DNA of 64,000 nucleotides from positions 1 through 64,000 of the forward strand of contig JAFIGT010000019.1 in NCBI GenBank assembly GCA_017849585.1, read 5' to 3'. The notes beneath the pieces were generated by a model. That model worked only from the letters and a program-made list of their open reading frames with translations, did no database searches and was not told where the DNA came from. The position numbers were made by a program, and so were the translations under genes. Each line of letters starts with the position of its first letter. Position 1 is the first letter of the stretch. Origin of the DNA: Verrucomicrobium sp. GTDB lineage: Bacteria; Verrucomicrobiota; Verrucomicrobiia; Methylacidiphilales; UBA1321. Positions 28,604 through 52,466 of this stretch are shown here, one piece after another.

Positions 28604-29155
28604 TTATCCCCACAACTGGCGATCAAGCGTTCGGTACTGGATCGCCTCGCTGATATCTTCGGAGTTGATCTGCTCGCGGCCAGCGAGATCGGCAATGGTG
28701 CGGCTAACTTTCAAGATGCGGTCGTAAGCGCGCGCGCTGAGTTGGAGTTCTGCCAAGGCCATGCGCAGCAAGCTCTCGCTGTCGGCATCGAGCGCGGCGT
28801 AAACCTTCAACTCCTTCGAATTCATCTGCGCGTTGCACCGGGTCTTGCGTTTGCCCGCGAACCGCTCGTTCTGCACCGTGCGTGCCTTCAGCACGCGCTC
28901 GCGAATGGAGGACGACGGCTCCCCGGCTCCGTGTTTGAGCAACGTCTCGTGCTTCACGGCAGGAACCTCGACATGGATGTCGATACGGTCAAGCAGCGGA
29001 CCGGAAATCTTGTTCAAGTAACGTTGTGTTTCCACGGCGGTACTACGTCCGTTCTTCGCGCCGGTCGGCGTCGGATTCATCGCGGCCACAAGCATGAATT
29101 GCGCGGGAAAAGTCATCGTTCCCGCCGCCCGGGAGATGGTCACCTGCCCATCCTC
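28604..29155 (-). pseudogene. comM/YifB 3' fragment, copy 1
   Basis: It encodes the C-terminal ~183 residues of the ComM/YifB Mg-chelatase-like AAA+ ATPase ([16 protein letters not shown] to [10 protein letters not shown]-stop). It matches residues 324-506 of the intact gene at 50946-52466. The DNA is highly similar to that copy, with only a few amino-acid changes (such as V-Q-N-E for A-Q-N-D). Homology stops abruptly at the codon for Glu324. No start, Walker A or N-terminal Lon-like domain is present, so it should be non-functional. Confidence 0.93.
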
Positions 29156-29184
29156 AGATGGAAATGCTTAATGGGTATTTTGTC
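29156..29184. repeat. 29-bp junction repeat abutting comM fragment 1
   Basis: This sequence begins AGATGGAAATGC, ends GGGTATTTTGTC, and directly adjoins the truncated end of the comM fragment. It matches 38239-38267 at 26 of 29 bases and does not resemble the corresponding part of the intact comM. Similarity to the other copy ends on the far side at TTTGTC. Confidence 0.8.
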
Positions 29185-29770
29185 AATATGCGCTTTTTTG
29201 CAGCCTAAACTACTTTTTATGAGTTACTTACAACTGCTATTCTGCGACTCAAACGTGGGCTTCTTGTGCTTTCAGCGCGTAGTGGGTGCTCCAACCTCTA
29301 CGGCATACCTCTGCCTTACAGGCAGAGTCATTACGTTCTGTCCCTTAACAGCGACCTCGAGGATTCCGTTATAGATGAGATCGTGGAAAAGCTGACTTTG
29401 GCATCCTCAGTTTGCACGAGCACGTTCCTCAACATTAGCGAATAGCTCTGAGACGAGGGTAAGGGCGTCTCTTTGGGCCAAAGAGTCATCTCGCCGTCGA
29501 AGACCATCTTCTACTCATTGACCTTTGCGTGGCCGGCGGATTCGTTTAGTAGCCCCTCGAATTGCAGTCTCCCTTTGCGAATGCCGCGAACAAACTGAGA
29601 TCTAGCACCGAGCCGAATTCGCTTAATTTCAGGTCTCTCTGGACTCGAACAATCGACTCGATGGCCCAAGTCCTATCTCGTTGATCCTCAATCGGCGCAC
29701 CTTGCCACGCCTTCCTGAGTAGAGTCGCAAGGGGATAATGACTTATACCAATTCCCAATGAGCAGTGGTA
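29185..29770. other. Gene-poor stretch with possible decayed coding sequence
   Basis: About 590 bases without an intact gene. The minus strand near 29270-29480 has stretches that read like protein (for example F-H-D-L-I-Y-N-G-I-L-E-V, then V-M-T-L-P-V-R-Q-R-Y-A-V-E-V) but contain stops. A 70-codon minus-strand frame at 29546-29758 has no recognised domain. It is interpreted as remnants left at the edge of the acquired cluster. Confidence 0.45.
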
Positions 29771-30538
29771 TTAGGCCCATTCGATGGAAACGCCTGCGCG
29801 CTGAAAGGGCTTCAGGGAGGAGGTGGCAACACCTTCATTCGTCACCAATATATGTATTTTGGAGAGATCCAGAACTTTGCTGAGCGAGCGTTTTCCAAAT
29901 TTGGTCCGATCCAAAAGAAGAATCACTTTGGCGGCAGAAGTGCACATGGCTCGCTTGACTTCGATTTCCATAGGGTTGGGATCGGTGAGCCCCTCCTCCG
30001 CAGTGAAACCCGTGGAACTGATAAAGCACAGATCGCTTCGATGCGTATGGAAAAAGGCCACGGCCTGCGGCCCGACAAATGTTCTGGAAACATGACGATA
30101 GATGCCCCCGCTGGCCATTACCGTATCGGTAGGACGTGTTTGGCGTAAGGCCTCCACGCTGTTGGAGAGAATGGTCAGATTCTGGACTTCCAGATAGGAG
30201 AGAACGCTGATCCCGGTGGTGCCCCCTTCCACGGCGATGCTTTGTCCTGCGCGGGGAAATCGATGAGCCGCGTAACGAGCCAATTTTAGTCGATCTTCGG
30301 AAACGGCGGCGGCCTTGGCAGTATAGTCGGGTTCTGGCTCTCCCGCAGGCAGCGAGGGAAGAGCGCCTCCGTGAACGCGGCGCACTTCTCCCAAGTCCTC
30401 CAGTTCCCGGAGGTCACGCCAGAGAGTCATAACCGTCAAGCCCAATTGTGCAGCCGCCTCCCGAACGCGCAAATTCCCTCGCCGACTTAGTTCAAGTCGG
30501 AGCCAATTACGACGTTGTTCTGGGAGTAATTTAGGCAT
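29771..30538 (-). CDS. DeoR/GlpR-family sugar-phosphate-responsive repressor
   Basis: 255 residues from ATG 30538; a longer frame would begin 12 codons upstream in the promoter. The N-terminal winged helix is L-R-V-R-E-A-A-A-Q-L-G-L-T-V-M-T-L-W-R-D-L. It is followed by R-R-V-H-G-G-A and the DeoR sensor domain (V-E-G-G-T-T-G-I-S, T-I-L-S-N-S, F-I-S-S-T-G-F). Such sensors fold like sugar-phosphate isomerases and bind phosphosugars. It is divergent from the kinase-isomerase operon at 30634 and probably represses it. Confidence 0.9.
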   Translation of the reverse strand: MPKLLPEQRRNWLRLELSRRGNLRVREAAAQLGLTVMTLWRDLRELEDLGEVRRVHGGALPSLPAGEPEPDYTAKAAAVSEDRLKLARYAAHRFPRAGQSIAVEGGTTGISVLSYLEVQNLTILSNSVEALRQTRPTDTVMASGGIYRHVSRTFVGPQAVAFFHTHRSDLCFISSTGFTAEEGLTDPNPMEIEVKRAMCTSAAKVILLLDRTKFGKRSLSKVLDLSKIHILVTNEGVATSSLKPFQRAGVSIEWA

Positions 30539-30633
30539 GGATTGGAAGGCTCGATATGTTATAATTATTAACAAATTCTAAAATAATACAACATTGATTT
30601 TGCGATACACTGAAGTCCGCGTATCTTTTGAGC
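30539..30633. promoter_or_regulatory. Divergent deoR/kinase promoter region
   Basis: 95 AT-rich bases separate two divergent starts. An imperfect palindrome GTTATAATTATTAAC (30558-30572) contains TATAAT (30560-30565). It is a reasonable operator/promoter candidate for the DeoR-type repressor. Assignment of -35/-10 pairs is not secure. Confidence 0.5.
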
Positions 30634-31611
30634 ATGAACTTGCTCTTTTGCGGGGTCGATGCGGGAGGGACCTCCTGCCGGGCCACGGTACTATCCCCGG
30701 ATGGCGGACAGCGTGGTTGGGGCTACGCATCAGGAGCTAATCCCACGCATGGCGGTTGGAAAATGGCGAGCGCTACCATGCATGAAGCCGTGCAGCAAGC
30801 CTGCTCCGATGCCGGAGCCAAGATGGAACAGATCAAGAGCTTGTTTGTCGGCATGGCTGGCGTCGTGACAACGGAAGACCGCTCGCAGTCGCTGGAGCGT
30901 TGCCGGAATTGGCCTCTGGCTGAAAATTGCATTTATGGAGTGGACCACGATATCCGCATTGCTTTACAAGGTGGACTTTCCGGACGTCCGGGGATTGCCT
31001 TGATTGCGGGAACCGGCTCATCCTGTTACGGAAGAAATGATCTGTATGATTTCTGGCAGGCAGGCGGCTGGGATCGGATTCTGGATGATTTGGGCAGCGG
31101 CTATGATTTGGCCCAAAAGGGCATGGCGGCGGCTTGTCAGAGCGCTGATGGGCGTCTGAAAAAAAGTCTGTTGGAATCGTGTTTTTTCGGCGCTCTCGGA
31201 ACAACGAATGTCTCGGACTTTTCCCAGAAAGTACATCGCCCCGGCATGGCACGGCACGAGATCGCCGCGCTGGCGCCGCTGGTCTTAAAGGCGGCAGAAA
31301 AGAATGATGCGGCGGCGGTGCAAATCGTCACCGCCGGAGCCAACGAGTTGGCGCGCATGGTCGAAGCCGTTTCCGATAAACTTTTTCCCCAACAAAATCC
31401 CGAAGTGGTACCCATTGGCGGGTTGATCGAAAAGTCAGAGAGTTATCGTCACTACGTGACAAACGCCATTCTGGCGCGTCTACCGCGAGCCCGTCTCACG
31501 ACTGCCGAACTGAGGCCAGCCGTGGGAGCATTGGCCCTTGCGGCGGCACAGGTCAAACATCCCGTTGATTTAAAACACCTGCAGTTGTTGTCTGCCCAAG
31601 CAAAGGAGTAA
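30634..31611 (+). CDS. BadF/BadG/BcrA-type ATPase sugar kinase (N-acetylglucosamine kinase-like)
   Basis: 325 residues from ATG 30634; a TTG two codons upstream is ignored. It has the ASKHA kinase phosphate-1 motif G-V-D-A-G-G-T-S-C-R-A-T, then A-L-I-A-G-T-G-S-S-C-Y-G, W-D-R-I-L-D-D-L-G-S-G-Y-D-L and the adenosine motif P-I-G-G-L-I. The family phosphorylates hexoses or amino sugars such as GlcNAc. The neighbouring isomerases suggest a hexose in this locus. Its stop is followed directly by an AAGGAG-TAAGTG-ATG arrangement for the next gene. Confidence 0.82.
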   Translation: MNLLFCGVDAGGTSCRATVLSPDGGQRGWGYASGANPTHGGWKMASATMHEAVQQACSDAGAKMEQIKSLFVGMAGVVTTEDRSQSLERCRNWPLAENCIYGVDHDIRIALQGGLSGRPGIALIAGTGSSCYGRNDLYDFWQAGGWDRILDDLGSGYDLAQKGMAAACQSADGRLKKSLLESCFFGALGTTNVSDFSQKVHRPGMARHEIAALAPLVLKAAEKNDAAAVQIVTAGANELARMVEAVSDKLFPQQNPEVVPIGGLIEKSESYRHYVTNAILARLPRARLTTAELRPAVGALALAAAQVKHPVDLKHLQLLSAQAKE

Positions 31612-31614
31612 GTG

Positions 31615-32196
31615 ATGACCTCTTTATTTGACCTGACCCATTATTACAATAGCGCGACCGGGGAGATTTCTGGCAGCCAACGCGTCGAGCGGAGATTGTC
31701 TGACCTCAAGGGCTGCTACGCTGACGAGTCCGCCTATCGGGAATTGCTTTCGCGGGAAGATTCGTTGCTTTACGCCGTGGCGGCCATCGAGCCAGCGTCG
31801 AACGAGGGAGATCTTCACTATGGAGTGGGGATTCTCTATCCCGGAAAAGTAGGCGCTGAATATTTCATGACGAAGGGACATCTTCACGCGTGGCGACCTG
31901 CCGCAGAAGTTTACATCGGTCTTCGGGGAAATGGAGTCATGCTGCTGGAAGACGAAACCACAGGCGAAAGCCGTATGGAAGTTCTCGCCCATAATTCCAT
32001 CGTCTAGGTCCCCGGCCACACGGCACATCGCACTATGAACACCGGCTCCGAGCCGCTCGTTTATATCGGGATTTATCCGGCAAAGGCCGGTCATGATTAC
32101 GGGGCCATTGCCGAACGCAATTTTCGAAGCGTCGTTGTCGAAAAGCAGGGACAACCCCAACTGCACTCGCGCGACAAATGGATGCAGCAATTTTAA
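31615..32196 (+). pseudogene. Cupin-type (archaeal-family) glucose-6-phosphate isomerase with in-frame TAG
   Basis: 193 codons plus stop from ATG 31615, with AAGGAG 6 bases upstream. It is a cupin of the PF06560 phosphoglucose isomerase type: G-I-L-Y-P-G-K-V-G-A-E-Y-F-M-T-K-G-H-L-H (His metal ligands) and E-V-Y-I-G-L-R-G-N-G-V-M-L-L. A TAG at 32005-32007 interrupts N-S-I-V-*-V-P-G-H-T-A-H-R-T where Tyr is conserved. The same frame continues intact through A-H-R-T-M-N-T-G to 32196. A single TAC-to-TAG change explains it. The downstream half contains another metal-site histidine, so truncation should inactivate the enzyme unless the amber codon is read through. Confidence 0.85.
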
Positions 32197-32213
32197 AAAG
32201 GAATCCTCCCTTT

Positions 32214-32609
32214 ATGAGTAAATACCGAACCAAACCCATTCCTGACTCAAAACCAAAGGTCGATTTTATCGAACGACCATGGGGAAATTTCAAACAATTC
32301 GCCTTTAACCAGGATTGCACCGTCAGCCTGATGACAGTAACGCCGGGACAACGCTTGAGCCTCCAATCCCACACCGGTCGCGCCGAACTCTGGATCGTTT
32401 TAGACGATGGGGCGCGAGCGCAAGTCGGAGAGTCCATTTCCGAGCACAAGACAGGCGATGAAATCTGGATTCCCACCAACGAAAAGCATCGCCTCTCCTG
32501 CGTGGCGAAAACGCCCGCGCGTGTGCTCGAGGTCGCCTTTGGCAACTGGCAGCAGGCCGACATTACTCGCTATGAAGATGACTTCAAACGCCCCGAGCAA
32601 GGCGAATAA
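32214..32609 (+). CDS. Single-domain cupin, mannose-6-phosphate isomerase type II C-terminal-like
   Basis: 131 residues from ATG 32214. An upstream ATG overlaps the previous gene and lacks support. Cupin motifs: R-P-W-G-N-F-K-Q-F, T-P-G-Q-R-L-S-L-Q-S-H-T-G-R-A-E-L-W-I-V-L-D-D-G and P-T-N-E-K-H-R-L-S-C. This matches the isomerase domain found at the C-terminus of bifunctional GMP/PMI proteins, here standing alone. It probably interconverts mannose-6-phosphate and fructose-6-phosphate or a related sugar phosphate. It is in the kinase-isomerase operon. Confidence 0.8.
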   Translation: MSKYRTKPIPDSKPKVDFIERPWGNFKQFAFNQDCTVSLMTVTPGQRLSLQSHTGRAELWIVLDDGARAQVGESISEHKTGDEIWIPTNEKHRLSCVAKTPARVLEVAFGNWQQADITRYEDDFKRPEQGE

Positions 32610-32615
32610 TTTCTT

Positions 32616-33716
32616 ATGAAAGCATTTTCCGAATTAGCGCAGCCACTGGCCATTACTATGTGGGATTTTTCGTGGCTGGAGCGACGCTGGCCCGGAGCCG
32701 GTTACGAGGATTGGGATGAAGCCCTTGATGGTTTGGCTGAACGCGGCTATGACGCGGTGCGCATTGATGCGTATCCACACCTTGTTGCAAGTGAGCCGCA
32801 CAAGACCTGGGATCTCCTGCCCTGCTGGAATCAACAGGACTGGGGTAGTCCCGCCTTGAATCGCGTTCAGGTATTGCCCGCACTCGCAGAATTTATTCAA
32901 AAGTGCGCCGAGCGAAAAATTAAAGTGGGGCTGTCCACCTGGTTTCGACAAGATGCAGGCAATACTCACCTGCAAATTAAAGATGGAATTGCCCATGCCC
33001 ACATCTGGATCAAGACTCTCGAACACATCGAAAAGGCAGGACTGCTAGAGCACATTCTCTATGTAGATCTTTGCAATGAGTGGCCATTGGATGTATGGGC
33101 TCCCTTTTATAAAAATCCCAATGGAGGCAATGATTGGAGACATCCGAGTTGTCTCCAATGGATGGAACAATCCACCGCCGAAGTTCGTAAATTTTACCCT
33201 CAGATACCTTTGACTTATTCCCTCTGGCCCGATAAGGCCTTTCAAAAAGGAGAGTTATCTTTTTTTGATTTTCTGGAACCTCACATCTGGATGGTGCAGC
33301 AAGGAGATTTCTATTCGCGTGTGGGATACAAATACGAGAGATTCGAATCCATTGGTTACGAAAATATAGTGCGCCATGCCGAGCCGCTCTATCGAAGTAA
33401 TCCCGATCTTTGGCAGGCACAGTTGAAAGACTGTATCCTCTGGCATGCTGAATTATCCCGCCGCACAGGCCATCCTCTGATGACCACAGAATGCTGGGCC
33501 ATTGTAGACTATAAAGATTGGCCCTTATTGGATTGGGGCTGGGTCAAGGAACTCTGCGCGATAGGTGTAGAAACCGCAGCGGAAACGGGCCGGTGGGCGG
33601 CCATCGCAACCAGTAATTTTTGCGGACCTCAATTTCGGGGCATGTGGCGGGACGTTGCCTGGCATCAGCAATTAACGAAGAAGATTCACCAATCGAAATT
33701 CCCTGGCCGCGACTAA
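32616..33716 (+). CDS. Cytoplasmic cellulase-like TIM-barrel glycoside hydrolase
   Basis: 366 residues and no signal peptide. It is a TIM-barrel protein of the sugar-binding cellulase-like group: M-W-D-F-S-W-L-E-R-R-W, R-G-Y-D-A-V-R-I-D-A-Y-P, Y-V-D-L-C-N-E-W-P (likely acid/base Glu in N-E-W), L-T-Y-S-L-W-P-D and P-L-M-T-T-E-C-W-A (likely nucleophile Glu in T-E-C-W). It starts 7 bases after the cupin gene and probably hydrolyses an imported oligosaccharide feeding the neighbouring kinase and isomerases. The substrate is not predictable. Confidence 0.75.
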   Translation: MKAFSELAQPLAITMWDFSWLERRWPGAGYEDWDEALDGLAERGYDAVRIDAYPHLVASEPHKTWDLLPCWNQQDWGSPALNRVQVLPALAEFIQKCAERKIKVGLSTWFRQDAGNTHLQIKDGIAHAHIWIKTLEHIEKAGLLEHILYVDLCNEWPLDVWAPFYKNPNGGNDWRHPSCLQWMEQSTAEVRKFYPQIPLTYSLWPDKAFQKGELSFFDFLEPHIWMVQQGDFYSRVGYKYERFESIGYENIVRHAEPLYRSNPDLWQAQLKDCILWHAELSRRTGHPLMTTECWAIVDYKDWPLLDWGWVKELCAIGVETAAETGRWAAIATSNFCGPQFRGMWRDVAWHQQLTKKIHQSKFPGRD

Positions 33717-33719
33717 TCC

Positions 33720-35513
33720 ATGAGACATCCAAACTACGATAAATTTCCCACCGTCCCCGTTCCCGCCCGTCACGCTAAAGAATGCTGGACAGGATGGGTG
33801 CACATCGCCGGAGAGATTAAGCGGTCCATTTCCCAAAAAAAGACTTCGGCATGCCCGCGAATCGTCGTGGCGATCGAGTGCTATCCTGGCGTTTTGGATG
33901 AGGAAATCAGAGGACAGCTCGAGCAAGTTTTTCTGCCGGCACTCGTTCTCGATTCGAAGAAATCCTTCAAAAGTGAATCCGACATTGGCCGTCTGCTGGC
34001 TCCAGATTTAGGCGGCAATGATCCGGTTTTCGGCTACATGAGCCGATTGCAACTGGAGGATTTTCTGGATACGGCAAAGCTTCTCGATGTTCGTCGGGAA
34101 ATCGAACAACAGACGGATGGCGTTGTATTCGTCATTGGACCGGCCGCCGTTTTAATCGCCTCCAAGCCCGATCTTTTTATTTATGCCGACATGCCCCGAT
34201 GGGAAGGACAGCTTCGGCAGCGGCGCAACGAAGTTTCCAATCTTGGCGTGAGCAACAAGGAGTTGAAGGCTTCGCTCCAGTACAAGCGCTCCTTCTTTAT
34301 CGACTGGCGCGTCTGCGACCGACTCAAGCAGCAGACCATGGAACAATGGGATTATCTGCTTGATACGACAGATCAGGGGAAACCCAAGTTAATCACTGGC
34401 GTGTCGCATCTGGCGGGATTGCGACATGCCGTAACCCGCCCTTTTCGCGTGGTGCCTTTTTTCGATCCGGGCCCATGGGGCGGTCAATGGATGAAGGAAG
34501 TTTGCGATCTGGACCGGTCACAAGTCAACTACGCCTGGTGCTTTGATTGCGTGCCGGAAGAGAACTCGCTTCTGCTTGAATTCGCCGATGGAGTGCGCGT
34601 GGAAATACCAGCCATTAACCTAGCTTTCAACCAGCCCAAAGCCTTGCTGGGAGAACCTGTGCATGGTCGTTTCGGCCCTGAATTTCCCATCCGATTCGAT
34701 TTTCTGGACACAATGGGCGGAGGCAATCTCTCCTTTCAGGTGCACCCCACAACGGCCTTTGCGCAAGAGCATTTCGGCATCCACTATACCCAGGACGAAA
34801 GCTACTACATGCTCGATGCCGGGAAGGACGCGGTGGTTTATCTAGGCCGAAAAAATGAGGCGAGCTTTCCCGATTTAATAGCAGCGCTTGAATCAGCGCA
34901 ACACGGCGAAAATCAATTTGCCGATGAAAAATTCGTAGCCCGGTGGCCAGCCAAAAAGCATGATCATTTTTTGATTCCCGCCGGAACGCTGCACTGCTCG
35001 GGAGCCAATGGCATGGTACTCGAAATTTCCGCAACACCCTATATTTTTACTTTTAAACTGTGGGATTGGAATCGCCTGGGAATGGATGGACTACCGCGTC
35101 CCATGAATATCCAGCGCGGGCGACAGGTCATCGATTGGTCACGCGACGAAGACTACGCCCGCACAAGACTCATCAATCAAATCACCCCCGTAGCCAGCGG
35201 AACCGGTTGGCGTGAGGAGCGAACCGGTCTGCACGAAGCGGAGTTTATCGAAACACGACGGCACTGGTTCACCGACAAAGTGACCCACGATACAGGCGGT
35301 CAAATATCCGGCGGCGTCCAGGTGCTTAATCTCGTACAGGGCGAGGAAGCCGTAGTCGAAAGCCCGACCGGAGCCTTTGAACCTTTCACTGTCCACTACG
35401 CGGAAACATTCATTGTCCCTGCCGCAGTCGGTCCGTATACGATACGCCCAACGAGTCAGTCATCCAAAGATGAATGCGCGACAATGAAAGCATTTGTCCG
35501 AACTAGACCTTAG
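33720..35513 (+). CDS. Long class I mannose-6-phosphate isomerase
   Basis: 597 residues, well above the ~300-400 of ordinary type I enzymes. The C-terminal half carries the zinc cupin: F-Q-V-H-P-T-T-A-F-A-Q-E-H-F-G (around 340) and P-A-G-T-L-H-C-S-G-A-N (around 425). The N-terminal ~270 residues (H-A-K-E-C-W-T-G-W, V-V-A-I-E-C-Y-P-G-V, G-G-N-D-P-V-F-G-Y) form the extra domain known from long Bacteroidetes/Verrucomicrobia homologues; it has P-loop-kinase-like spacing but no clear Walker A. It follows the hydrolase by 3 bases. Its stop overlaps the convergent remnant at 35510. Confidence 0.85.
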   Translation: MRHPNYDKFPTVPVPARHAKECWTGWVHIAGEIKRSISQKKTSACPRIVVAIECYPGVLDEEIRGQLEQVFLPALVLDSKKSFKSESDIGRLLAPDLGGNDPVFGYMSRLQLEDFLDTAKLLDVRREIEQQTDGVVFVIGPAAVLIASKPDLFIYADMPRWEGQLRQRRNEVSNLGVSNKELKASLQYKRSFFIDWRVCDRLKQQTMEQWDYLLDTTDQGKPKLITGVSHLAGLRHAVTRPFRVVPFFDPGPWGGQWMKEVCDLDRSQVNYAWCFDCVPEENSLLLEFADGVRVEIPAINLAFNQPKALLGEPVHGRFGPEFPIRFDFLDTMGGGNLSFQVHPTTAFAQEHFGIHYTQDESYYMLDAGKDAVVYLGRKNEASFPDLIAALESAQHGENQFADEKFVARWPAKKHDHFLIPAGTLHCSGANGMVLEISATPYIFTFKLWDWNRLGMDGLPRPMNIQRGRQVIDWSRDEDYARTRLINQITPVASGTGWREERTGLHEAEFIETRRHWFTDKVTHDTGGQISGGVQVLNLVQGEEAVVESPTGAFEPFTVHYAETFIVPAAVGPYTIRPTSQSSKDECATMKAFVRTRP

Positions 35514-35698
35514 AAACTCACACCCAATGAATCCAAATCCCGAAACCAGTGGTCCGGACACGACTTCAGCTCTCCCAAAAAATCAACGCCCATTGTATGA
35601 ATGGTAGTGAGATGTCCCGTATACACGCTTCGCGCCGCGGCAATAACTTGTTTCCATTGAGCGTCCATACCTGTCGTATGATCCAACTGACTATCCAA
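35510..35698 (-). pseudogene. Glycoside hydrolase TIM-barrel fragment
   Basis: A 62-codon open stretch (W-K-Q-V-I-A-A-A-R-S-V-Y-T-G-H-L-T-T, then F-R-D-L-D-S-L-G-V-S-F) resembles the middle of barrel-type glycosidases. In those, 'W-R-x-L-I-x-x-V-R-x-x-Y-x-G-x-L-T-Y' precedes 'W-D-x-L-D-Y-I-G-V-D'. Both ends are missing. Its stop overlaps the convergent isomerase stop (TTAG). It is a remnant. Confidence 0.5.
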
Positions 35699-35718
35699 TC
35701 CAAGTGCTTCGCTACCGG

Positions 35719-36888: not shown

Positions 36889-36960
36889 TCTGCCTCATGT
36901 TGCTTACGCAGCGGGTCGCGCGAACTTTCTTAACCGTCCGCTTTCCTACCAATAAGTGAA

Positions 36961-41856: not shown

Positions 41857-41885
41857 GATTATTTTCAATGGAGGTTGGGGTTAAG

Positions 41886-43013: not shown

Positions 43014-43058
43014 GGAAAGGAGAATAACCAAGCCGCGAAATGATTGCAATTAAAAAAA

Positions 43059-43091: not shown

Positions 43092-43099
43092 GGCGGCAG

Positions 43100-45379
43100 A
43101 TGAACGAATTTATTGTCGAAGCCGATTTCTGTGTAATCGGCGGTGGCGTCGCCGGCATCTGTGCGGCGTTGGCGGCTTCCCGAGAGGGACTGCGAGTCGT
43201 GCTGGTGCAAAACCGCTCTCTCCTTGGTGGGAATGCCTCGAGTGAAATCCGCCAGGCTATCGGCGGCGCTGGTTTCATGGGGCATTTCCCCGACGCTCGT
43301 GAAGGCGGAATTGTTGGTGATTTATGGACGCGCGTGCGGCAGGGCTGCTTTCGCAACAATCTCAATGACTATGCCGAGAGCAGTGTGATTTTCTGGGATC
43401 TCTGCCAGAAGGAAAAAAATCTGCAGCTCTTTCTCAATACACACGTCACGGCGGTGGAAAAGAAAGGCTCCCGGCTGATCTCGATCACTGGCATTCAGAC
43501 GAGCACAGGTCGGACCATCGTCGTGCGGGCCGCGCAGTTCGCTGACTGCTCCGGTGATGCGAATGTTGCCTACCTTGCTGGGGCGGCCTTCATGTCGGGG
43601 CAGGAGGGCCGTGATGAATTTGGAGAATCACTGGCTCCCCACGAGCGCACTTCTTTCACCATGGGCAATACCCTTCTCTTCCAGGCGGAGAAGCTGGACC
43701 GTCCCGTGCCGCCACCGCATTTCGATTGGATTGAGGATCTGCGTGGTCGCAAAATCTGGTGGACGTTGCATCCGCCCGTTGGTCCGATGGAATCCGGTTG
43801 CTGGACGTTTGAATACGGCGGCACGCTCGACACGGTTGCCGATGCGGAAAAAATCTATGCCGAGCTGCTTAAGATTCTCTATAGCGCGTGGAGCGATCTC
43901 AAGCTCCGCCCTGAATGCGGCATGGAAAATTACCGCATCAGCTTCGTCAGCGGTCTACCCGGCAAACGCGAAAGCCGCCGCGTCATCGGAGACTACATTC
44001 TCTCGCAAAACGACATTGTAAGCATGCGGCGCTTTTCCGATGATGTTGCCTATGCAGGCTGGAGTCTCGACCTGCATCATCCCGAGGGTTTTTACGGTCC
44101 GGGCCGTCCGACACAGTTTTGCTTTTTCCCGGAGATCCATTCGCTGCCGCTGCGTTGTCTGTATGCGCGTGATCTGGATAATCTCTGGCTCGCAGGGCGC
44201 GATATCAGCGTTACGCACATTGCCCTCGGTGGCGTGCGGCTCATGGCTACGTGCGGTCTGGCGGGCGAAGCGATAGGCACGGCCGCGACCTATTTTGCGC
44301 AGGCTGGATCGTGTCGCGAGACGGGGCGTCGGTTTATCAAGGAAATCCAGCAAACAATCTTGCGCGGTGGCGGATTTATTCCCGAGGTTCGCAACAACGA
44401 TAGCAGCGATCTTGCCCGGCACGCCATTGTGAGCGCTCATAGCGAAGCGGTTCTCGAAACGGGTGAGCCAACCGAGTGGGTGGCGATTTCCAATGGAATC
44501 GGTATTGCCTTTCCTGTTACCGCTCAACGACTCGGTACGTTGACGCTCTGGACACGCAATGCCACCGCTGCGCCGGCAACTCTCCGGGCCGTCTTGCAAC
44601 CGATTCGCGCTCTGCGCGATTTTCATTCCACCAAGCCGCTGGCTCAAGCGCGTAGCGAAGCGCCTCCAGGCGAGGCGCAAATCGTATTCACTTTCAATGC
44701 GGTGGGGCTGCGCGACGACGTCTACATGGTGCACGTTTTTTCCGACAGCCGTGAACTCTGCCTCGGTCAGGTTCGTCGCCGAATCACGGGCGTTCATGCC
44801 GCAGATCATTTCCCCGATGGTAACGAAAACGGCTGGGCCATCGAACTTGGTACACCCAATCCCCCTCACTGGGTGCGGCGTTTTAACAACCAGCGAAACA
44901 ATGCGCCGGAGGAGTTTCATTCGACGCCATGCTTTACGCTCCAACCGCCGTCTTGCTGCTACAGTGCCGCCAACGTCATCAACGGCTTCAATCGTCCCAC
45001 CCGCCTGCCGAATTTGTGGGCATCAGATCCGCGCGCGCTGTTTCCGCAGGAACTCATTTTGCGCTGGCCCGAGCCGGTGTGTCTCAAGGAGATTCGCATT
45101 GTTTTCGATGACGACATGGACCTGAGCATGCCTCCACTGGTGCCGCTTTCGACACTTGTGGCTGACTATACGCTCGAGGCCGAGACCGATGCCGGTCCGC
45201 TCGTGCTTGCTTCAGTAAAGAACAACGGGCACCGGCTCGCTATCCACTCTATTTCTGGCGTTTCCACCCAGCTTTTGCGTTTGCGTATTGAGCGCATGCA
45301 TGCCGGTGGAACGCAGGCTCGTGTTTTTGAAATTCGTTGTTACGGCCAAGGGCCGTGTATCGCTCCGGCGTCTTCCTGA
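43100..45379 (+). CDS. FAD-dependent oxidoreductase with C-terminal beta domain
   Basis: 759 residues. The Rossmann FAD motif V-I-G-G-G-V-A-G-I-C-A-A-L-A-A-S-R-E-G (about 12-30) and L-L-G-G-N-A-S-S-E-I-R are typical of the PF12831 FAD-dependent oxidoreductases of glycan-utilisation loci. A second FAD-contact block is R-D-I-S-V-T-H-I-A-L-G-G-V-R-L-M-A-T-C-G. Residues about 470-750 form a beta-rich, discoidin-like appendage (A-A-N-V-I-N-G-F-N-R-P, W-P-E-P-V-C-L-K-E-I-R-I-V-F-D-D). No signal peptide is seen. The family probably oxidises sugar or sugar-derivative hydroxyls; the substrate is unknown. Confidence 0.82.
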   Translation: MNEFIVEADFCVIGGGVAGICAALAASREGLRVVLVQNRSLLGGNASSEIRQAIGGAGFMGHFPDAREGGIVGDLWTRVRQGCFRNNLNDYAESSVIFWDLCQKEKNLQLFLNTHVTAVEKKGSRLISITGIQTSTGRTIVVRAAQFADCSGDANVAYLAGAAFMSGQEGRDEFGESLAPHERTSFTMGNTLLFQAEKLDRPVPPPHFDWIEDLRGRKIWWTLHPPVGPMESGCWTFEYGGTLDTVADAEKIYAELLKILYSAWSDLKLRPECGMENYRISFVSGLPGKRESRRVIGDYILSQNDIVSMRRFSDDVAYAGWSLDLHHPEGFYGPGRPTQFCFFPEIHSLPLRCLYARDLDNLWLAGRDISVTHIALGGVRLMATCGLAGEAIGTAATYFAQAGSCRETGRRFIKEIQQTILRGGGFIPEVRNNDSSDLARHAIVSAHSEAVLETGEPTEWVAISNGIGIAFPVTAQRLGTLTLWTRNATAAPATLRAVLQPIRALRDFHSTKPLAQARSEAPPGEAQIVFTFNAVGLRDDVYMVHVFSDSRELCLGQVRRRITGVHAADHFPDGNENGWAIELGTPNPPHWVRRFNNQRNNAPEEFHSTPCFTLQPPSCCYSAANVINGFNRPTRLPNLWASDPRALFPQELILRWPEPVCLKEIRIVFDDDMDLSMPPLVPLSTLVADYTLEAETDAGPLVLASVKNNGHRLAIHSISGVSTQLLRLRIERMHAGGTQARVFEIRCYGQGPCIAPASS

Positions 45380-45409
45380 TTCAACTTCCAACCCTCCTCT
45401 ACAAAACTC

Positions 45410-48400
45410 ATGAAACAAATTGTGTACGGATGTCTCGTCTTCATTTTTGCAGCCACGGCATTGTCTGCAGCAAACACTCCAGTCAAGCCCCTCACCGTTC
45501 TCGCCCGCGCCGAAGGTTGGAACGTGCGTGGCAAAGCAACCTGCCGCCCCATCGATAAGGGCATTGAAGTAACGCCTTCGCTCGCTACCCAGACCGTCAC
45601 TCTCGATTGCACCGCGCCCGTTTTGCTCGATGGTAAAACCGGGCGTATAGGGTTCTGGCTCTATGCCAAGACTGCCAAAAAAGGAGAAGTGATCGTGGTG
45701 CACTTCCGTCTGCGCGACGCGGCCGGTAATCCGTTCGAGTATAACACCGGTCACGACGAATGGAACGCCATCAAGATTTACTCCGGTAACTGGACCTACG
45801 TTGACTCCTATCCGGTTGACGCCCGCGACGGTAATTTCATCTCTGCACTGGCCGGCTTCCGTCTGGGAGGTCCCAAGCCGTCGCCGCTACCTGAACTCCC
45901 TTTTTCCCTCCAAGGTGTCATCATTTCCGCGCCCACCGGTAGCGTCATCGAGCGAATTCAATTGCGCTCCCCTGTTTTCTCGCAGCTCGATTTCCGCAAG
46001 TCGGAATATTACTGGCAAGCACGGGATCGTGCTCTTACCGTCGAGGAAACAGGCAGTGCCGATCCGTTTGTGCTGACGAGTGATTACGCCGATCATCCGG
46101 GGGACTATCAGCTCTACTGGATTCTCAGCGAAGCGCGCGGGGGTGACGTGATGGCTACCGGCACGAAGTCATTCACCATTGAGAGTGATACCATTCCGGC
46201 CATGGACCCGATCACGTTGCCTCGCCTCTCGCCGGGTAGTTATCATTTGCATACCCGGCTTTGGAACAAAAAGGAATCGCCCCAAACCTATCGCGAAAGT
46301 GATGAATGGTTTTTTGTCTATCGCGGCAAAAAAATCGCGACGAAAACGGCGACGTTTCCCTCGATATTCGACCGCATCGCCATTGATTCCAGCACTCCGT
46401 CCGGTGTGCATGAACCGACTGACAGTCTCGACGTCCCCGTTGAAATCGCCACGGACGGCCTCGCGGCTGGACCGTGCCAGCTTGAGTGGAAAATTCTCCA
46501 TTTTGATCGGCGTCCCCTCGACGCGGGCATTATCGCGTTTACTCCCGATGCCTCCGGCCGCTTCCGCGGCAGCATTGCTTTCAAGCCGCCGGGTGATGAC
46601 AACGTTTTCCAAGTGGAAGTCGCACTCACTCAAGGTGGGAAGACCCTCGACCGTAATAAAAAGCTCGTCGGCTTTCGCGGCATTGCTCCGAAACCGGCAG
46701 AGTATGACAAAACCGCGCCGGAATTCGAACCCGCCATCTTCATCGGCATCACCGCCATCGGTTCTAAATTCCGCAATGACGAGCGTTACGAGCGCCACTT
46801 AAAAGCGCTTCGGGAAAAGGGAATTCGAGGGATCGAATATCATGTGGAATGGTCAGCTATCGAGCCGCTACCTGGCTGTTTCACCTTCGCCGAGATGGAT
46901 CGTCACATCGGAATGGCCCGGCGTCAGGGATTCAAGATCATGATGCGGCTGCGCTCCGAGTTTCCCCGTTACACAATTCCTAATTGGGTCACTGGCGACT
47001 TCCTCTGTCAACAGGACGGGCGTGCCGACGGCTTGATCTCCTCGGGACCGGTTCCTTCTCCCTGCGACGTCCGTTGGGTGGGTGAATACGAAAACTACCA
47101 GCAGACTGTCGGTTGCCGCTATGCCTCCGATCCATGGGTTATTTCTTACAAAATGCCGCAAAACATTCGCGAAGCATACTGGATCGACCGTCCCTTCCGC
47201 TATCAGTTCACCGACTACAGTGACGCCGCAGCGGAAGCCTTCCGCCAATACCTCAAAGTCCAGTATGGAAGTCCCGCTGCCGTTGCCAAAAAGTATGGAA
47301 AAAATTATACGGCATGGGATCAGATTGAGCCGCCGCAACCGTACGCTGCTACGACCGCACTCAATCTCACCCCCGAATGGCGCGACTGGTCCGAGTTCAA
47401 AAATGCTTTCTATAACGCGAGTCTCGTGAACCGGATTGAAAAAATGCACGCCGCCGCGCCCCGCCAGCATCTCTACGTTTATAGTATCAATGCCCTTACT
47501 GGTACGCCCACAGTCGAAACTCTTCGCCGCTTCCCTCGGTGCAACGCATCGTTGGCAACGGGTGGCTCATTGCCCGTTGGCGAGATCAGTCATACCCGCC
47601 TTTACGCACCGGAGTATGGATTGACCGTCGTTCCTGAGCCGAACGCTTACGCCTTGCGCAATGCCCCGGATGCGGACAGTCATGCTGGCATGGCGCTGGA
47701 AGGTTCCGCTGGGAAGGGGCCTCGTTTTTATTCGTACTGGGGCACGGCGGTGGAGCCGGGCGGCACCGGTTCCGATTTCCATGCAGCGCTTAACCGGATG
47801 GCACAATGGAATCCGGCATACGAAAGCGTGCCCAAGCTAACGATGCCGCAGGCACCGGTCGCCTTTGTCTTTTCCTGGACGGGCATGTGGTACGGACAGC
47901 GGGCCATGTACACGCAGACGTTCGCAGACCACAAGCTCGAACGGTATCGAACCGCGCTCCGGCATAACGGAGTCGAGGCATTCGGTGCGGATGATACCTT
48001 CACTGTTGAGATGCTGCAGCGGTTTAAGATTCTCGTGCTTCCCCCGGAAACCAGTCCCTCGATGACGGCGGAGCAGATTAGTAATATAGTCGAGTACGCC
48101 CGTGCCGGTGGCGTTGTCGTCTTGACGCCAGAATCAGGAGGCGTCATTCCCGATGCACCACAAAAAACGTCCGCATTACTGAACGCGCTTGGGATTAACC
48201 GGTCTGCCGCTGCAGCCATACCGCAAGCGCAGTCCGTGGGCAAAGGTACCGCGTGGATCTGCACTGACGGAAACGCGTTGAATGCTTATCTTGGTTCGGA
48301 GACATTTCTTGAGATTCTCCGTGCCGCCGGGGGTAAACGGTATTTCCGAGCGGGCGACGGGAAGGTGATTGCCACATTGCATGACGGACAGGACGGTTCG

Positions 48401-48604
48401 TTTTATCTCTATGTCTATAATGCGGGCGCAGCGAATGAAGTGAGTCTCACTGCCGTTGAGTGGCCTATGGCAGGCGCAGCGTTTGAGGTGAAGGATCTCA
48501 TCAATGGCACCCGTCTAGACGTGGCAGGTGCACCGGGGACGTCGTTTACGATTCCGATGGCGAAGGGACGGGCTGGATTTCTGAAAATCACACGGAAGTC
48601 ATGA
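45410..48604 (+). CDS. Exported GH42-like beta-galactosidase-family protein
   Basis: 1,064 residues. The signal peptide is M-K-Q-I-V-Y-G-C-L-V-F-I-F-A-A-T-A-L-S-A. Beta-sandwich-like modules occupy about 25-430. A GH42-like TIM barrel starts near 441 (G-I-R-G-I-E-Y-H-V-E-W-S-A-I-E-P, Y-G-S-P-A-A-V-A-K-K-Y-G, T-A-W-D-Q-I-E-P-P). A glutamine-amidotransferase-like trimerisation domain starts near 810 (F-S-W-T-G-M-W-Y-G-Q, V-L-P-P-E-T-S). The acid/base Asn-Glu pair is not obvious, since the expected place reads M-P-Q-N-I-R-E-A-Y-W, so activity may differ. It overlaps the next gene by 4 bases. Confidence 0.75.
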   Translation: MKQIVYGCLVFIFAATALSAANTPVKPLTVLARAEGWNVRGKATCRPIDKGIEVTPSLATQTVTLDCTAPVLLDGKTGRIGFWLYAKTAKKGEVIVVHFRLRDAAGNPFEYNTGHDEWNAIKIYSGNWTYVDSYPVDARDGNFISALAGFRLGGPKPSPLPELPFSLQGVIISAPTGSVIERIQLRSPVFSQLDFRKSEYYWQARDRALTVEETGSADPFVLTSDYADHPGDYQLYWILSEARGGDVMATGTKSFTIESDTIPAMDPITLPRLSPGSYHLHTRLWNKKESPQTYRESDEWFFVYRGKKIATKTATFPSIFDRIAIDSSTPSGVHEPTDSLDVPVEIATDGLAAGPCQLEWKILHFDRRPLDAGIIAFTPDASGRFRGSIAFKPPGDDNVFQVEVALTQGGKTLDRNKKLVGFRGIAPKPAEYDKTAPEFEPAIFIGITAIGSKFRNDERYERHLKALREKGIRGIEYHVEWSAIEPLPGCFTFAEMDRHIGMARRQGFKIMMRLRSEFPRYTIPNWVTGDFLCQQDGRADGLISSGPVPSPCDVRWVGEYENYQQTVGCRYASDPWVISYKMPQNIREAYWIDRPFRYQFTDYSDAAAEAFRQYLKVQYGSPAAVAKKYGKNYTAWDQIEPPQPYAATTALNLTPEWRDWSEFKNAFYNASLVNRIEKMHAAAPRQHLYVYSINALTGTPTVETLRRFPRCNASLATGGSLPVGEISHTRLYAPEYGLTVVPEPNAYALRNAPDADSHAGMALEGSAGKGPRFYSYWGTAVEPGGTGSDFHAALNRMAQWNPAYESVPKLTMPQAPVAFVFSWTGMWYGQRAMYTQTFADHKLERYRTALRHNGVEAFGADDTFTVEMLQRFKILVLPPETSPSMTAEQISNIVEYARAGGVVVLTPESGGVIPDAPQKTSALLNALGINRSAAAAIPQAQSVGKGTAWICTDGNALNAYLGSETFLEILRAAGGKRYFRAGDGKVIATLHDGQDGSFYLYVYNAGAANEVSLTAVEWPMAGAAFEVKDLINGTRLDVAGAPGTSFTIPMAKGRAGFLKITRKS

Positions 48605-50655
48605 GCGCAGGAAAATTCATCATCGGGCTGATACTGGGGGCGCTGGCCGCCACATCGGTAAGGGCGGAGGTGACGCTGCCTTCGCTCTTTTCCGATCACA
48701 TGGTCCTACAACGGTCGGCCAAGGTGCCGATTTGGGGTTGGGCCGCTGTAGACGAAAAAGTGAACGTTCATTTGGCGGGGCAAAGCGCTGCGGCGGTCGC
48801 CGACAAAACGGGCCGTTGGGAGGTGGCATTCGATCTGGCGAAAACGGAAAAAGGACCGCATACGCTGGAAGTTCAGGGTGCGAACTGCGTGGTCGTGCGG
48901 GATATCCTCATTGGCGAAGTGTGGCTCTGCTCCGGGCAGTCCAACATGGGGCTGCTGTTGAAGGGAAGCGTAAATGATGTGGCCGAAATCGCAGCGTCGG
49001 TTAACGACCAGTTGCGGGAATTTCACGTCGACAAGAAGCCATCGCTCCAGCCCGAGTCCCGCGTAGGTGGTGCGTGGCGCGCTGCCGGACCGTCCACATC
49101 GGGAAGTTTCAGCGCAGTAGCCTATTATTTTGGCAAGGCGCTACAACAGGTTCTTGGCGAACCAGTCGGTCTTATTCACGTCTCATACGGCGGCACTCCG
49201 ATCGAAACATGGATGAGCAGCGAGGCGCTTGATAAGGATCCTGCACTCGGTGCGTCAGCTCGCAAACATCTCGATGAGCTCGCGCGATATCCGTCCGAGA
49301 AGCAACGCTTCGTCGCACAGTTTCGCGATTGGACGCAGCGTTATGAACGTACCGATCGACCACATCTCGATCCTAAATTATTCGCCGCGCCCGATATTTC
49401 CACCAGCGGCTGGCGCGAAGTCACGCTTCCGGGAACCGTACCCGAAACCACTACGGGTGGCGTGGTCTGGTTACGTAAGGAAATTGAGATTTCCTCTGCG
49501 TGGGCTGGCAAGAGTTGGTCGCTTTACGCCGGCATACCGCAGCAACTCGAAGAGGTTTATTGGAATGGGCAAAAGATCGGTGAGATGACACTCGAGAAAT
49601 GGCGCGGCCGCGATATGCCTCGCTCCTACGACATCCCCGCTGCCCTGGTCCGCGAGGGAAAAAACGTCGTCGCATTACGCGTTTATGCCCCGTACGGACT
49701 GATCAGCATTCTCGGCTCGGCCAATGAACTTCGCCTTTCCACCATCCGTCCACTGGCTGGACCATGGTTCGCCAAAATGGAATATGCCTTGCCCCCCGTA
49801 CCAGCCGAGGCCGATGCATCGCGTCCAGTCGCTCCCGCAGTCGTGTCAGAACCGCAGGGCGTCGCCACTACGCTTTACAACGGTTCGATACATCCGCTCA
49901 TTCCCTACGCGCTACGCGGCTTCGTCTGGTACCAAGGCGAAAGCAATACGCCGCGGGCGTGGCAATATCGCACCGCCCTGCCATTACTCATTCAGGACTG
50001 GCGCGAAAAATGGGGCGGCGCACAGCTTCCTTTTTTCTACTGCCAGATCGCCAATGTGCAGGAAAAACTGACGCGTCCCGGCGACAGCGCCTCTGCCGAA
50101 TTGCGCGAGTCCCAGCATCAAACGCTCGCAGTTCCCGGTACCGCGGAAATCGTCCTCATCGATCAAGGCGAAGTCGACGTTCACTTCCGTGACAAAAAAG
50201 AAACGGGCAATCGCATCGCGCGTGCGGCGCTTGCTCTCACGTATGGAAAAGGTGGATCCTATTCCGGGCCGGTTTTCACACGGATGGAAAAAGAGTCGGG
50301 CACTCTCCGTCTTCATTTTAACCACGCCGATGGCGGACTTGTGGCCCGACCAGTGCCGGAACGCTACATTGTCCGCTCGAGAACCGGCGACACCAAGCCG
50401 CTTATTTTGCCGCGTCCCGGTAGCGCTCTGCAAGGCTTTGCCATTTGTGGCGAAGACCGAAAATGGGTGTGGGCGGACGCGCGTATCGATGGTGACAGCG
50501 TTATGGTTTCCTCACCGGACGTACCCGCACCTATCGCGGCGCGCTATGGATGGACGGAAAATCCCACGTGCAATCTCTACAACGGTGCCGGTCTTCCGGC
50601 TTCGCCTTTCCGCACCGACGATTTCCCGGCCATCACTCGCTCCGCCACATACTGA
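48601..50655 (+). CDS. Exported sialate O-acetylesterase-family esterase
   Basis: 684 residues. The signal peptide is F-I-I-G-L-I-L-G-A-L-A-A-T-S-V-R-A. The SGNH-like SASA family pattern is clear: L-P-S-L-F-S-D-H-M-V-L-Q-R at the mature start, G-E-V-W-L-C-S-G-Q-S-N-M (nucleophile Ser about 114), S-Y-G-G-T-P-I-E-T-W-M and G-F-V-W-Y-Q-G-E-S-N-T (about 440). An inserted beta-galactosidase-like jelly-roll lies at about 265-390 (W-L-R-K-E-I-E-I, G-K-N-V-V-A-L-R-V-Y). It deacetylates sialic acid or other acetylated sugars outside the cytoplasm. It is translationally coupled to the GH42-like gene (ATGA). Confidence 0.9.
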   Translation: MSAGKFIIGLILGALAATSVRAEVTLPSLFSDHMVLQRSAKVPIWGWAAVDEKVNVHLAGQSAAAVADKTGRWEVAFDLAKTEKGPHTLEVQGANCVVVRDILIGEVWLCSGQSNMGLLLKGSVNDVAEIAASVNDQLREFHVDKKPSLQPESRVGGAWRAAGPSTSGSFSAVAYYFGKALQQVLGEPVGLIHVSYGGTPIETWMSSEALDKDPALGASARKHLDELARYPSEKQRFVAQFRDWTQRYERTDRPHLDPKLFAAPDISTSGWREVTLPGTVPETTTGGVVWLRKEIEISSAWAGKSWSLYAGIPQQLEEVYWNGQKIGEMTLEKWRGRDMPRSYDIPAALVREGKNVVALRVYAPYGLISILGSANELRLSTIRPLAGPWFAKMEYALPPVPAEADASRPVAPAVVSEPQGVATTLYNGSIHPLIPYALRGFVWYQGESNTPRAWQYRTALPLLIQDWREKWGGAQLPFFYCQIANVQEKLTRPGDSASAELRESQHQTLAVPGTAEIVLIDQGEVDVHFRDKKETGNRIARAALALTYGKGGSYSGPVFTRMEKESGTLRLHFNHADGGLVARPVPERYIVRSRTGDTKPLILPRPGSALQGFAICGEDRKWVWADARIDGDSVMVSSPDVPAPIAARYGWTENPTCNLYNGAGLPASPFRTDDFPAITRSATY

Positions 50656-50690
50656 CCTGAAGCTTTCCGGCGCTTGGCTTCCCTCTCGGA

Positions 50691-50936
50691 ATGACTGAAA
50701 TCCGTTCAATGCGCGCATTCCTTTCATCGGAGGATGAGAAAGACGCCCAACACTCCAATATCCGGATTGAATTCGGTCATGGCGGCGACCATTCCAACTC
50801 GGTCGGCAATATCTTTGAGTACACGCAGCGCGGCTGGCACACCCAAGATAAAAGTCTTTTTGAGATATGGTTGAAATCAGGGCTCGCGCCTGAACTCTCA
50901 CATTTTTTCACGCGGCTACGCGTTCCCACTGGGTGA
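50691..50936 (+). pseudogene. Unidentified C-terminal protein remnant
   Basis: 81 codons open from an ATG with no ribosome site. From about the twelfth residue the composition is protein-like (S-N-I-R-I-E-F-G-H-G-G-D-H-S-N-S-V-G-N-I-F-E-Y-T split, then S-L-F-E-I-W-L-K-S-G-L-A-P-E-L-S). It ends 9 bases before the stop of the convergent intact comM. No family is recognised. Its position matches the helicase remnant beside comM fragment 2, so it may mark the island edge. Confidence 0.35.
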
Positions 50937-50945
50937 TCATCTTGA

Positions 50946-52466
50946 CTACCCCCAGAGCTGGCGGTCCAACGTGCGATACTGGATCGCCTCGCTGATGTCT
51001 TCGGAGTTGATGTGCTCGCGGCCCGCGAGATCGGCGATAGTGCGGGAGACTTTGAGAATGCGATCGTAGGCGCGGGCGGAAAGTTGGAGTTCTGCCAAGG
51101 CCATGCGCAGCAAGCTCTCGCTGTCAGCATCCAGTGCGGCGTAGACCTTCAATTCCTTCGAACTCATCTGCGCGTTGCACCGGGTCTTGCGCTTGCCCGC
51201 GAACCGATCGTTCTGCGCCGTGCGCGCTTTCAGCACGCGCTCGCGAATGGAGGATGACGGCTCCCCGGCACCGTGTTTGAGCAACGTCTCGTGCTTCACG
51301 GCAGGAACCTCGACATGGATGTCGATACGGTCAAGCAGCGGACCGGAAATCTTGTTCAAGTAACGTTGTGTTTCCACCGCCGTACTGCGCCCGTTCTTCG
51401 CGCCGGTCGGCGTCGGATTCATCGCAGCAACCAGCATGAATTGCGCGGGAAAAGTCATCGTTCCGGCCGCGCGGGAGATCGTCACCTGCCCGTCCTCCAG
51501 CGGCTGGCGCAACACCTCGAGGGCATTGCGTTTGAACTCGGGCAGCTCATCAAGGAAGAGGACTCCGTTATGCGCGAGGCTCACTTCGCCGGGACTCGGA
51601 TTCGCCGTCCCACCGATCAGGCCCACGTCGGAAATCGTATGGTGAATCGCACGAAACGGGCGCGAGCGGACAAAGGCGTCCTGTGCGAGCAAAAGACCGG
51701 CCACGCTGTGAATCTTCGTCGTCTCGAGCGCCTCGTCGAGCGTGAGTGGCGGAAAGATGCTCGGAATGCGCTTCGCGAGCATCGATTTGCCGCTCCCGGG
51801 CGGACCAATCATGAGAATGTTGTGACCACCCGCGACGGCGACCTCCACCGCGCGTTTGACGTGTTCCTGTCCCTTCACCTCCGAGAAATCGAGATCGCCG
51901 CCCTCGTGCTCGTCCAGCACGCTGGCGGGATCGACCGTCACCGGTTTCAGCTCGATTTTCTTTTCGAGAAAATCGGCCGCCTGCCGCAGATTATCGATCG
52001 CATAGACCGCAATGCCTTGCACAATGGCCGCTTCCTTTGCATTCGCGCTCGGAACGAGGATCGCCTGTTTCTTTTTCTTCTTGGCTGCGAGGGCGATGGC
52101 GAGCACGCCTTTCACCGGACGCACTTCGCCGCTCAACGCCAACTCTCCCACGATCCAACACTTCTCCATCCGCACGGAGTTCAATTGCTCGGAAGCGGCA
52201 AGAAGACAAAGCGCAATCGGCAGATCGAAGCTCGGCCCTTCTTTTTTGACATCGGCGGGTGCCAGATTGATCGTCGTGCGGCCATAAGGAAACTTGAATC
52301 CGCTATTCTCCACCGCGGTCTTCACCCGGTCCCCGCTCTCCTTCACCGCTGTATCGGGTAAGCCCACCACGACCACTTTGGGCAGGCCGTAGGTGCAATT
52401 GACCTCCACTTCGACGGGATAGGCTTCAACCCCCCAAACGGCTGCGGAAAAGGCTTTGGCAAGCAT
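50946..52466 (-). CDS. comM: ComM/YifB Mg-chelatase-like AAA+ ATPase, intact
   Basis: 506 residues, normal length. N-terminal Lon-protease-like fold (M-L-A-K-A-F-S-A-A-V-W-G-V-E-A-Y-P-V-E-V), T-I-N-L-A-P-A-D-V-K-K, Walker A G-P-P-G-S-G-K-S, Walker [28 protein letters not shown] and the C-terminal Mg-chelatase domain. ComM is a hexameric helicase that promotes branch migration during natural transformation. Residues 324-506 are present twice more in the window as truncated copies. Confidence 0.95.
   Translation of the reverse strand: MLAKAFSAAVWGVEAYPVEVEVNCTYGLPKVVVVGLPDTAVKESGDRVKTAVENSGFKFPYGRTTINLAPADVKKEGPSFDLPIALCLLAASEQLNSVRMEKCWIVGELALSGEVRPVKGVLAIALAAKKKKKQAILVPSANAKEAAIVQGIAVYAIDNLRQAADFLEKKIELKPVTVDPASVLDEHEGGDLDFSEVKGQEHVKRAVEVAVAGGHNILMIGPPGSGKSMLAKRIPSIFPPLTLDEALETTKIHSVAGLLLAQDAFVRSRPFRAIHHTISDVGLIGGTANPSPGEVSLAHNGVLFLDELPEFKRNALEVLRQPLEDGQVTISRAAGTMTFPAQFMLVAAMNPTPTGAKNGRSTAVETQRYLNKISGPLLDRIDIHVEVPAVKHETLLKHGAGEPSSSIRERVLKARTAQNDRFAGKRKTRCNAQMSSKELKVYAALDADSESLLRMALAELQLSARAYDRILKVSRTIADLAGREHINSEDISEAIQYRTLDRQLWG

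Follow-up and report, generated by a model that had tools for sequence, protein, structure and literature searches.

Candidate attR scars of serine recombinase elements stacked beside a whole comM gene in Verrucomicrobium sp.

Organization of the comM locus and its truncated 3' ends

The locus lies in the genome of Verrucomicrobium sp. (assembly GCA_017849585.1; 4.79-Mb in 43 contigs), where positions 1-64000 of the 144-kb contig JAFIGT010000019.1, hereafter the window, carry an intact comM gene and, downstream on the same strand, two truncated copies of its 3' end. The coordinates given in a first-pass annotation for the three comM copies, all on one strand, were verified. Each truncated copy starts at the GA of codon 324 and is preceded by a 29-bp block, and the locus probably represents two stacked attR scars of comM-targeting large serine recombinase (LSR) elements, the comM gene having then been restored and the integrases lost. 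The main features, from the intact gene to the right flank, are as follows.

50946-52466, minus strand: intact comM, 506 aa, with Mg_chelatase, ChlI and Mg_chelatase_C domains
51497-51496, minus strand: predicted attB position, the GA of the Glu324 codon, 48 bp past the Walker B motif VLFLDE (codons 302-307)
50946-51081, minus strand: last ~136 bp of intact comM, of ancestry unlike the rest of the gene (mosaic breakpoint near nt 1385 of the coding sequence)
38268-50945, no strand assigned: interval B, a carbohydrate cluster (by domain matches)
38239-38267, minus strand: putative attP half-site of scar 2, 29 bp, with AAGTAC at 38258-38263 (-25 to -20)
37690-38238, minus strand: comM 3' fragment 2, starting at the GA of codon 324, the apparent displaced 3' end of a diverged comM
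29185-37689, no strand assigned: interval A, a carbohydrate cluster plus debris (by domain matches)
29156-29184, minus strand: putative attP half-site of scar 1, 29 bp, with AAATAC at 29175-29180 (-25 to -20)
28604-29155, minus strand: comM 3' fragment 1, starting at the GA of codon 324, the apparent displaced 3' end of a close allele
27932-28393, minus strand: conserved right flank, the first gene past the scar array, which also flanks a different 5.2-kb island in the congener G010

In both fragments, the reading frame is open as far as the native stop codon. The 29 bp preceding the fragments are identical between the two scars at 26 of the 29 positions, and the likeness of the upstream sequences falls to background past this block. 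Just inside comM, the fragments match each other at 37 of 60 positions (~62%), and the 29 bp are better conserved than the adjacent comM sequence (Fisher p=0.003), as expected if one element end had been joined to different target alleles. The earlier proposal that one breakpoint was used at least twice, which had been drawn from the unlike divergence of the two fragments, was upheld. The block is present in two copies in the 4.79-Mb genome, both at these scars. No copy was found in 11 family relatives, the 384 class genomes gave just background-like matches with three mismatches, and there was no match in genome_contigs or viral_contigs. The same annotation had noted that the 29 bp could prove to be an ordinary conserved coding tail of a neighbouring gene; this candidate was rejected, since the two copies have unlike neighbours and no reading frame is continued from the block into comM.

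Comparison of the three comM 3' ends revealed different degrees of divergence. Fragment 1 is 91.1% identical to the intact comM in nucleotides and 97% in amino acids, with a ratio of nonsynonymous to synonymous substitution rates (dN/dS) of 0.07. Fragment 2 shows ~64-67% nucleotide and 72% amino acid identity, and the proportion of nonsynonymous differences (pN) is about 0.18-0.2 against a proportion of synonymous differences (pS) of ~0.9, where synonymous sites are saturated, in comparison with any comM. The low dN/dS and the relation of pN to pS are unlike the decay of dead fragments and indicate that the three ends evolved in working genes; the intact comM, fragment 1 and fragment 2 thus appear to be three alleles that diverged while functional, in separate cells. 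In addition, fragment 2 carries a genus-specific 4-aa deletion after NPSP, which points to a diverged member of this lineage as its source. The intact comM is itself a mosaic, with a switch of ancestry at nt 1385 both versus G010 and versus fragment 1 (max-chi2, 0/5000 permutations), thus indicating that foreign comM 3' ends enter by homologous recombination at this locus.

Serine recombinases at codon 324 in related genomes

Junctions in related genomes were found by a class-wide search for partial comM genes, followed by junction reading. These analyses revealed that comM is split at RQPL|E324 in the genomes G271, G307 and G179, while in G165 it is whole and accompanied by a trailing fragment that starts at codon 324. 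G307 and G179 are more distant Verrucomicrobiota of other families, and in both of them comM is split at the nucleotide identical to the window breakpoint. In G307, just ~26 bp separate the comM 3' part from an LSR of 587 aa, which closes an interval of ~38-kb, and in G179 an LSR of 566 aa begins ~50 bp past the comM 5' part, with the 3' part located on another contig. The two LSRs both contain PF00239 and PF07508 domains and are 39% identical to each other. The attP sites rebuilt by joining attR-left to attL-right are imperfect palindromes centred on the codon-324 GA, with scores of 16/25 in G307 and 17/25 in G179 (shuffle p 0.0002 and 0.0001, respectively), and the junctions of both window scars, G307, G179, G271, G001 and G165 all align on this same GA. 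The view of comM as an insertion target was supported, and the predicted recurrence of the Glu324 breakpoint beside other cargo was found in G001, G165, G271, G307 and G179. Unrelated deletions at different points, named beforehand as an outcome that would speak against a shared breakpoint, were not what the relatives displayed, the point being identical.

The 29-bp block was further compared with the attachment arms of these elements. The motif AARTAC, defined on the two window scars alone, was found at exactly -25 in the arms of G179 and G307. Agreement with it was 21/24 in the LSR arms and 26/30 when the scar of G001 was included, a level reached by 0/200000 shuffles (p<1e-5). The inner sequence TCCATCT is common to the window 29 bp and the right arm of G179, and in the half-site of scar 2 the inner TTCCATCT adjoins the crossover. 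Crystallography of a Listeria integrase has shown a half-site of attP to span 25 bp and to be touched by a recombinase domain and a zinc domain (PMC3783163). The shared AARTAC at -25, the inner TCCATCT of G179 and the GA-centred attP palindromes point to the 29 bp as the attP half-site of an LSR, so that each block with its fragment would very probably form an attR scar. G271 and G165 have no AARTAC match at the -25 spacing, and therefore more than one integrase type probably uses codon 324.

With respect to membership in the LSR elements, the window shares with them the junction nucleotide with its central dinucleotide and a half-site of ~25-bp with inner and outer blocks at fixed spacing, and it has no integrase beside the att site. 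PF07508 gave 0 matches in the whole genome and none in the window, a scan of the window for the second attP arm (attL being lost) returned background scores with a best of 18/27, and viral_contigs yielded no phage or circular element with related LSRs. The window thus holds scars of LSR elements and is not itself a member element.

Analysis of the corresponding region in the family genomes revealed that the sequence downstream of comM differs in every one, and that the upstream gene order is common to most of them. In the congener G010, whose comM is 98% identical in protein, the gene is followed by a 5.2-kb island with a LacI-type regulator and by the same right flank, with no trailing fragment, and in the congener G011 it is followed by an 11-kb sugar island and then a decayed comM 3' piece. 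G001, which belongs to another genus, has an insert of 1.1-kb and then a 3' piece starting at codon 324. In the scar genomes examined (G000, G001, G004, G006, G011, G165 and G378), the pieces that accompany the intact comM are 3' pieces only, located downstream and on the same strand, and in G004, G006 and G011 the fragments have other, decayed starts. A longer array than that of the window was observed in G378 (positions 1-18000 of the examined piece of contig C19), where a whole comM is accompanied by three same-strand 3' fragments of different age within ~12 kb.

Proposed history of the locus and alternative explanations

The history proposed for the locus comprises three steps. In the first, which is well supported, an LSR would have recombined its attP with the attB of comM, with crossover at the codon-324 GA, so that comM was split and the right edge read, in order, cargo, 29-bp attP half-site, GA and comM 3' end. 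In the second, we infer that comM was restored by homologous recombination with comM DNA of a relative, probably via natural transformation; such repair would strip attL and the integrase gene, but would spare the attP half-site together with the cargo distal to the repair and the 3' end that had been displaced. This restoration step draws support from the three alleles that diverged under purifying selection, the mosaic intact comM, the restriction of the accompanying pieces to 3' ends and the downstream region that varies across the family. In the third, this cycle would have run at least twice, with integrases of near-identical attP specificity: the first insertion would have displaced a native-like 3' end (fragment 1), repair or import would then have supplied a diverged 3' end, and the second insertion would have displaced this diverged end (fragment 2), the present 3' end being supplied by a later exchange. 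Further homologous exchange anchored in the comM 3' end could swap the neighbouring island among congeners. The first-pass model of tandem islands integrated at comM is supported in this respect, and it appears moderately likely that both the break of comM and its repair took place in this very lineage.

Several observations weigh against this history. The identity of the 29 bp to the arms of G307 and G179 is partial (14/25 at best), no integrase or attL is left in the window or the genome, and the enzyme is deduced from relatives of other families. Since the ancestry switch at nt 1385 is found 3' of codon 324, this exchange postdates a whole comM and does not record the repair itself. Moreover, roughly equal distances separate the intact allele, fragment 1 and the G010 allele from one another, and hence any of them could be the native one. 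The scars could also have been imported beside a whole comM, with no break in this lineage.

Such import is the first alternative: both scars, each with cargo, half-site and displaced 3' end, could have arrived ready-made on the downstream side of a comM with no history of interruption in this lineage, which would leave their LSR origin unchanged. The mosaic nature of comM 3' regions and the swapping of downstream islands among congeners are in accordance with this explanation, and fragment 2 with the adjoining tail of a defence gene resembles one imported piece. However, two imports would be needed, each with a non-homologous left joint and both stacked in one orientation, and split comM genes with the LSR in place do exist in the class; ready-made import is thus considered somewhat unlikely.

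The first-pass annotation had also raised the possibility of a non-autonomous element with a comM 3' module of its own. Such an element could restore the gene on integration, as prophage e14 does at icd, the 29 bp and the fragment being parts of the element. The whole comM and the bounding of each island on both sides by a comM 3' end are as this model expects. Nevertheless, an LSR attP needs two P-type half-sites, the LSR-bearing relatives have comM split without restoration, and the two fragments are only 67% alike while the 29 bp are conserved, which argues that they do not descend from one inherited module. As for a tyrosine integrase, the 22 PF00589 matches in the genome are all on contigs other than that of the window. 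The 3'-module model is consequently improbable, and the fragments would instead be the target's own displaced 3' ends. Integrations of e14 at icd and of SXT at prfC restore the target gene, the element bringing its own gene end. The window resembles them in having a whole gene at one end and a displaced gene end at the other, but differs in that the comM lineages from which its gene ends derive appear to be different ones and that the enzyme class in relatives is the LSR.

An origin from Tn6022/AbaR-type Tn7-like elements, which had been mentioned initially as known to insert at comM, or from remnants of Tsy elements (YRec-HTH-TnsF) was evaluated as well. Both Tn6022 and Tsy target comM near Walker B, with a comM 3' part at the far end of the element, and the Tsy end2 of 20-39 bp abuts this 3' part as the 29 bp do (PMC10293859). 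Tsy was weighed seriously for this placement of end2 and was set aside, given the LSRs at codon 324 in relatives and the lack of YRec or TnsF. These systems differ from the window in enzymes and insertion points and leave the gene split: the Tn7-like island found in the genome G029 splits comM near codon 289, and the published ZooTsy target fragment implies codon 309-310, if cloned symmetrically. None of them was found at codon 324, where relatives carry LSRs, and tns, tniQ, tnsF and yrec genes were not detected in the intervals, which makes this origin very improbable. Equally hard to credit, and already largely refuted, is a partial duplication of comM in which recombination, homologous or illegitimate, acted without a site-specific enzyme. 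Homologous exchange at comM is evident and the fragments of G004, G006 and G011 start elsewhere, but at least six genomes from different families share the identical nucleotide, and it is exactly at this point that the 29-bp block, with its arm spacing of the LSR type, comes to an end.

With the LSR scars as the preferred reading, the integration chemistry is of a known kind, comM being already a favourite LSR target. The Mg-chelatase/comM gene is targeted by 12.4% of predicted site-specific LSRs (Durrant et al., PMC10083194), and sr1WO of phage WO in Wolbachia is an LSR with the same target (PMC9203015). The window is like these elements in its target gene, the enzyme class of its relatives, the flanking comM parts and the attP half-site beside the displaced part, but it differs in having no integrase or attL, a whole comM, and two stacked scars with different alleles downstream. 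What is new is the stacking of scars beside a restored gene and its recurrence in relatives; in the partial library that was searched, no account was found of a restored comM next to which attR scars and displaced alleles are stacked. Recovery of an interrupted comM by recombination has been proposed for Acinetobacter (PMC11472951), and the curing of mobile elements from chromosomes by transformation has been described (PMC11472951, PMC12637031). The likeness lies in an element-interrupted comM being regained through homologous recombination, and the difference in that the Acinetobacter case is based on recombination tracts, whereas here partial repair would leave att scars and displaced alleles.

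The reason why LSRs prefer comM is debated, one idea being that transformation is blocked, so that the element escapes curing. The combination of stacked scars, donor alleles and a whole comM offers a way to ask how often the host regains the gene and what stays behind. More generally, trailing comM 3' fragments can be read as marks of past insertions, datable by allele, a reading that explains how metabolic islands become fixed with no visible mobility gene. Tentatively, the locus may reflect repeated cycles of LSR inactivation and repair, the trailing comM ends being fossils from which events of chromosomal curing could be counted across Verrucomicrobiota. Each cycle would possibly strip the integrase, and what stays would be the attR scar, the allele that was displaced and cargo that is stranded and domesticated.

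Cargo intervals and other insertion sites in comM

The two intervals were confirmed to be carbohydrate clusters with one regulator each, of the DeoR type in A and the GntR type in B, and to contain no recombinase genes, as had been annotated at first. Besides the DeoR regulator, interval A encodes a BadF/ROK-type kinase, two cupin isomerase-like proteins (GPI-like and mannose-6-P isomerase-like), a cellulase-like protein and a protein of 597 aa. Interval B encodes a SASA esterase, a GH42-like protein, an FAD oxidoreductase, a DUF1559 pseudopilin, a DUF5696/GH101-like protein, the GntR-type regulator, which has a periplasmic-binding domain, and a PEP-CTERM-like protein that was assigned by reading the sequence; this interval is probably leftover cargo. 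With every LSR gone from the genome, the cargo formed by the sugar-utilisation clusters can no longer move. Two further features were located in interval A near fragment 2.

36961-37693, plus strand: C-terminus of a PDC-S37/Hhe-type anti-phage helicase-nuclease (AAA_12 + MTES_1575), truncated and frameshifted
35719-36888, minus strand: heparinase II/III-like open reading frame, with a weak Hepar_II_III_C match (profile 22-82 of 237)

The helicase-nuclease remnant, which was absent from the first-pass annotation, overlaps the stop codon of fragment 2 at the start of interval A. The heparinase-like open reading frame is probably truncated and represents recombination debris beside the fragment of scar 2. 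Taken with this broken frame, the defence-gene tail over the stop codon of fragment 2 looks like the joint of an import.

Three insertion points stand out in the comM genes of relatives, namely near codon 289, at codon 324 (LSR) and at codons 350-355. At the first of these, an island of ~24-kb splits comM in G029 (contig C2, 285001-320000), and open reading frames resembling TniB and TniQ, read by eye and not by profile, adjoin the comM 3' half; this island is likely to be a representative, within the phylum, of the Tn6022-like Tn7 elements. In both G013 and G015, comM is present twice, one copy being whole and the other split near codon 288. In G016 (positions 15873-17589 of the examined piece of contig C27), an LSR was observed next to a comM fragment that breaks off at ~codon 299. 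The 3' part of this gene, covering codons 281-506, is located ~30 kb away, and the break would be a third comM site of LSR insertion. The NPCPCG motif at codons 350-355 is a second, much-used integration site: comM is split there in many class members, among them G345, G226, G195, G367 and G382, with halves tens to 210 kb apart on one contig, so that the elements are possibly very large. Splits at this motif were also observed in viral contigs, where an LSR adjoins the comM piece. The family of the window has no NPCPCG and reads NPTPTG or NPSPGSG, an absence that may explain the use of codon 324 in this family. In several predicted viral contigs, the terminal sequence is a comM fragment that an LSR gene adjoins or lies close to.

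On the other side of the scar array, positions 20163-27662 of the window hold an open reading frame of 2499 aa with internal direct repeats, adjoining the conserved flank. Its homologue in G010 has 2138 aa and ~58-60% identity, and the start of this homologue resembles a surface protein of the filamentous-haemagglutinin/GLUG type.

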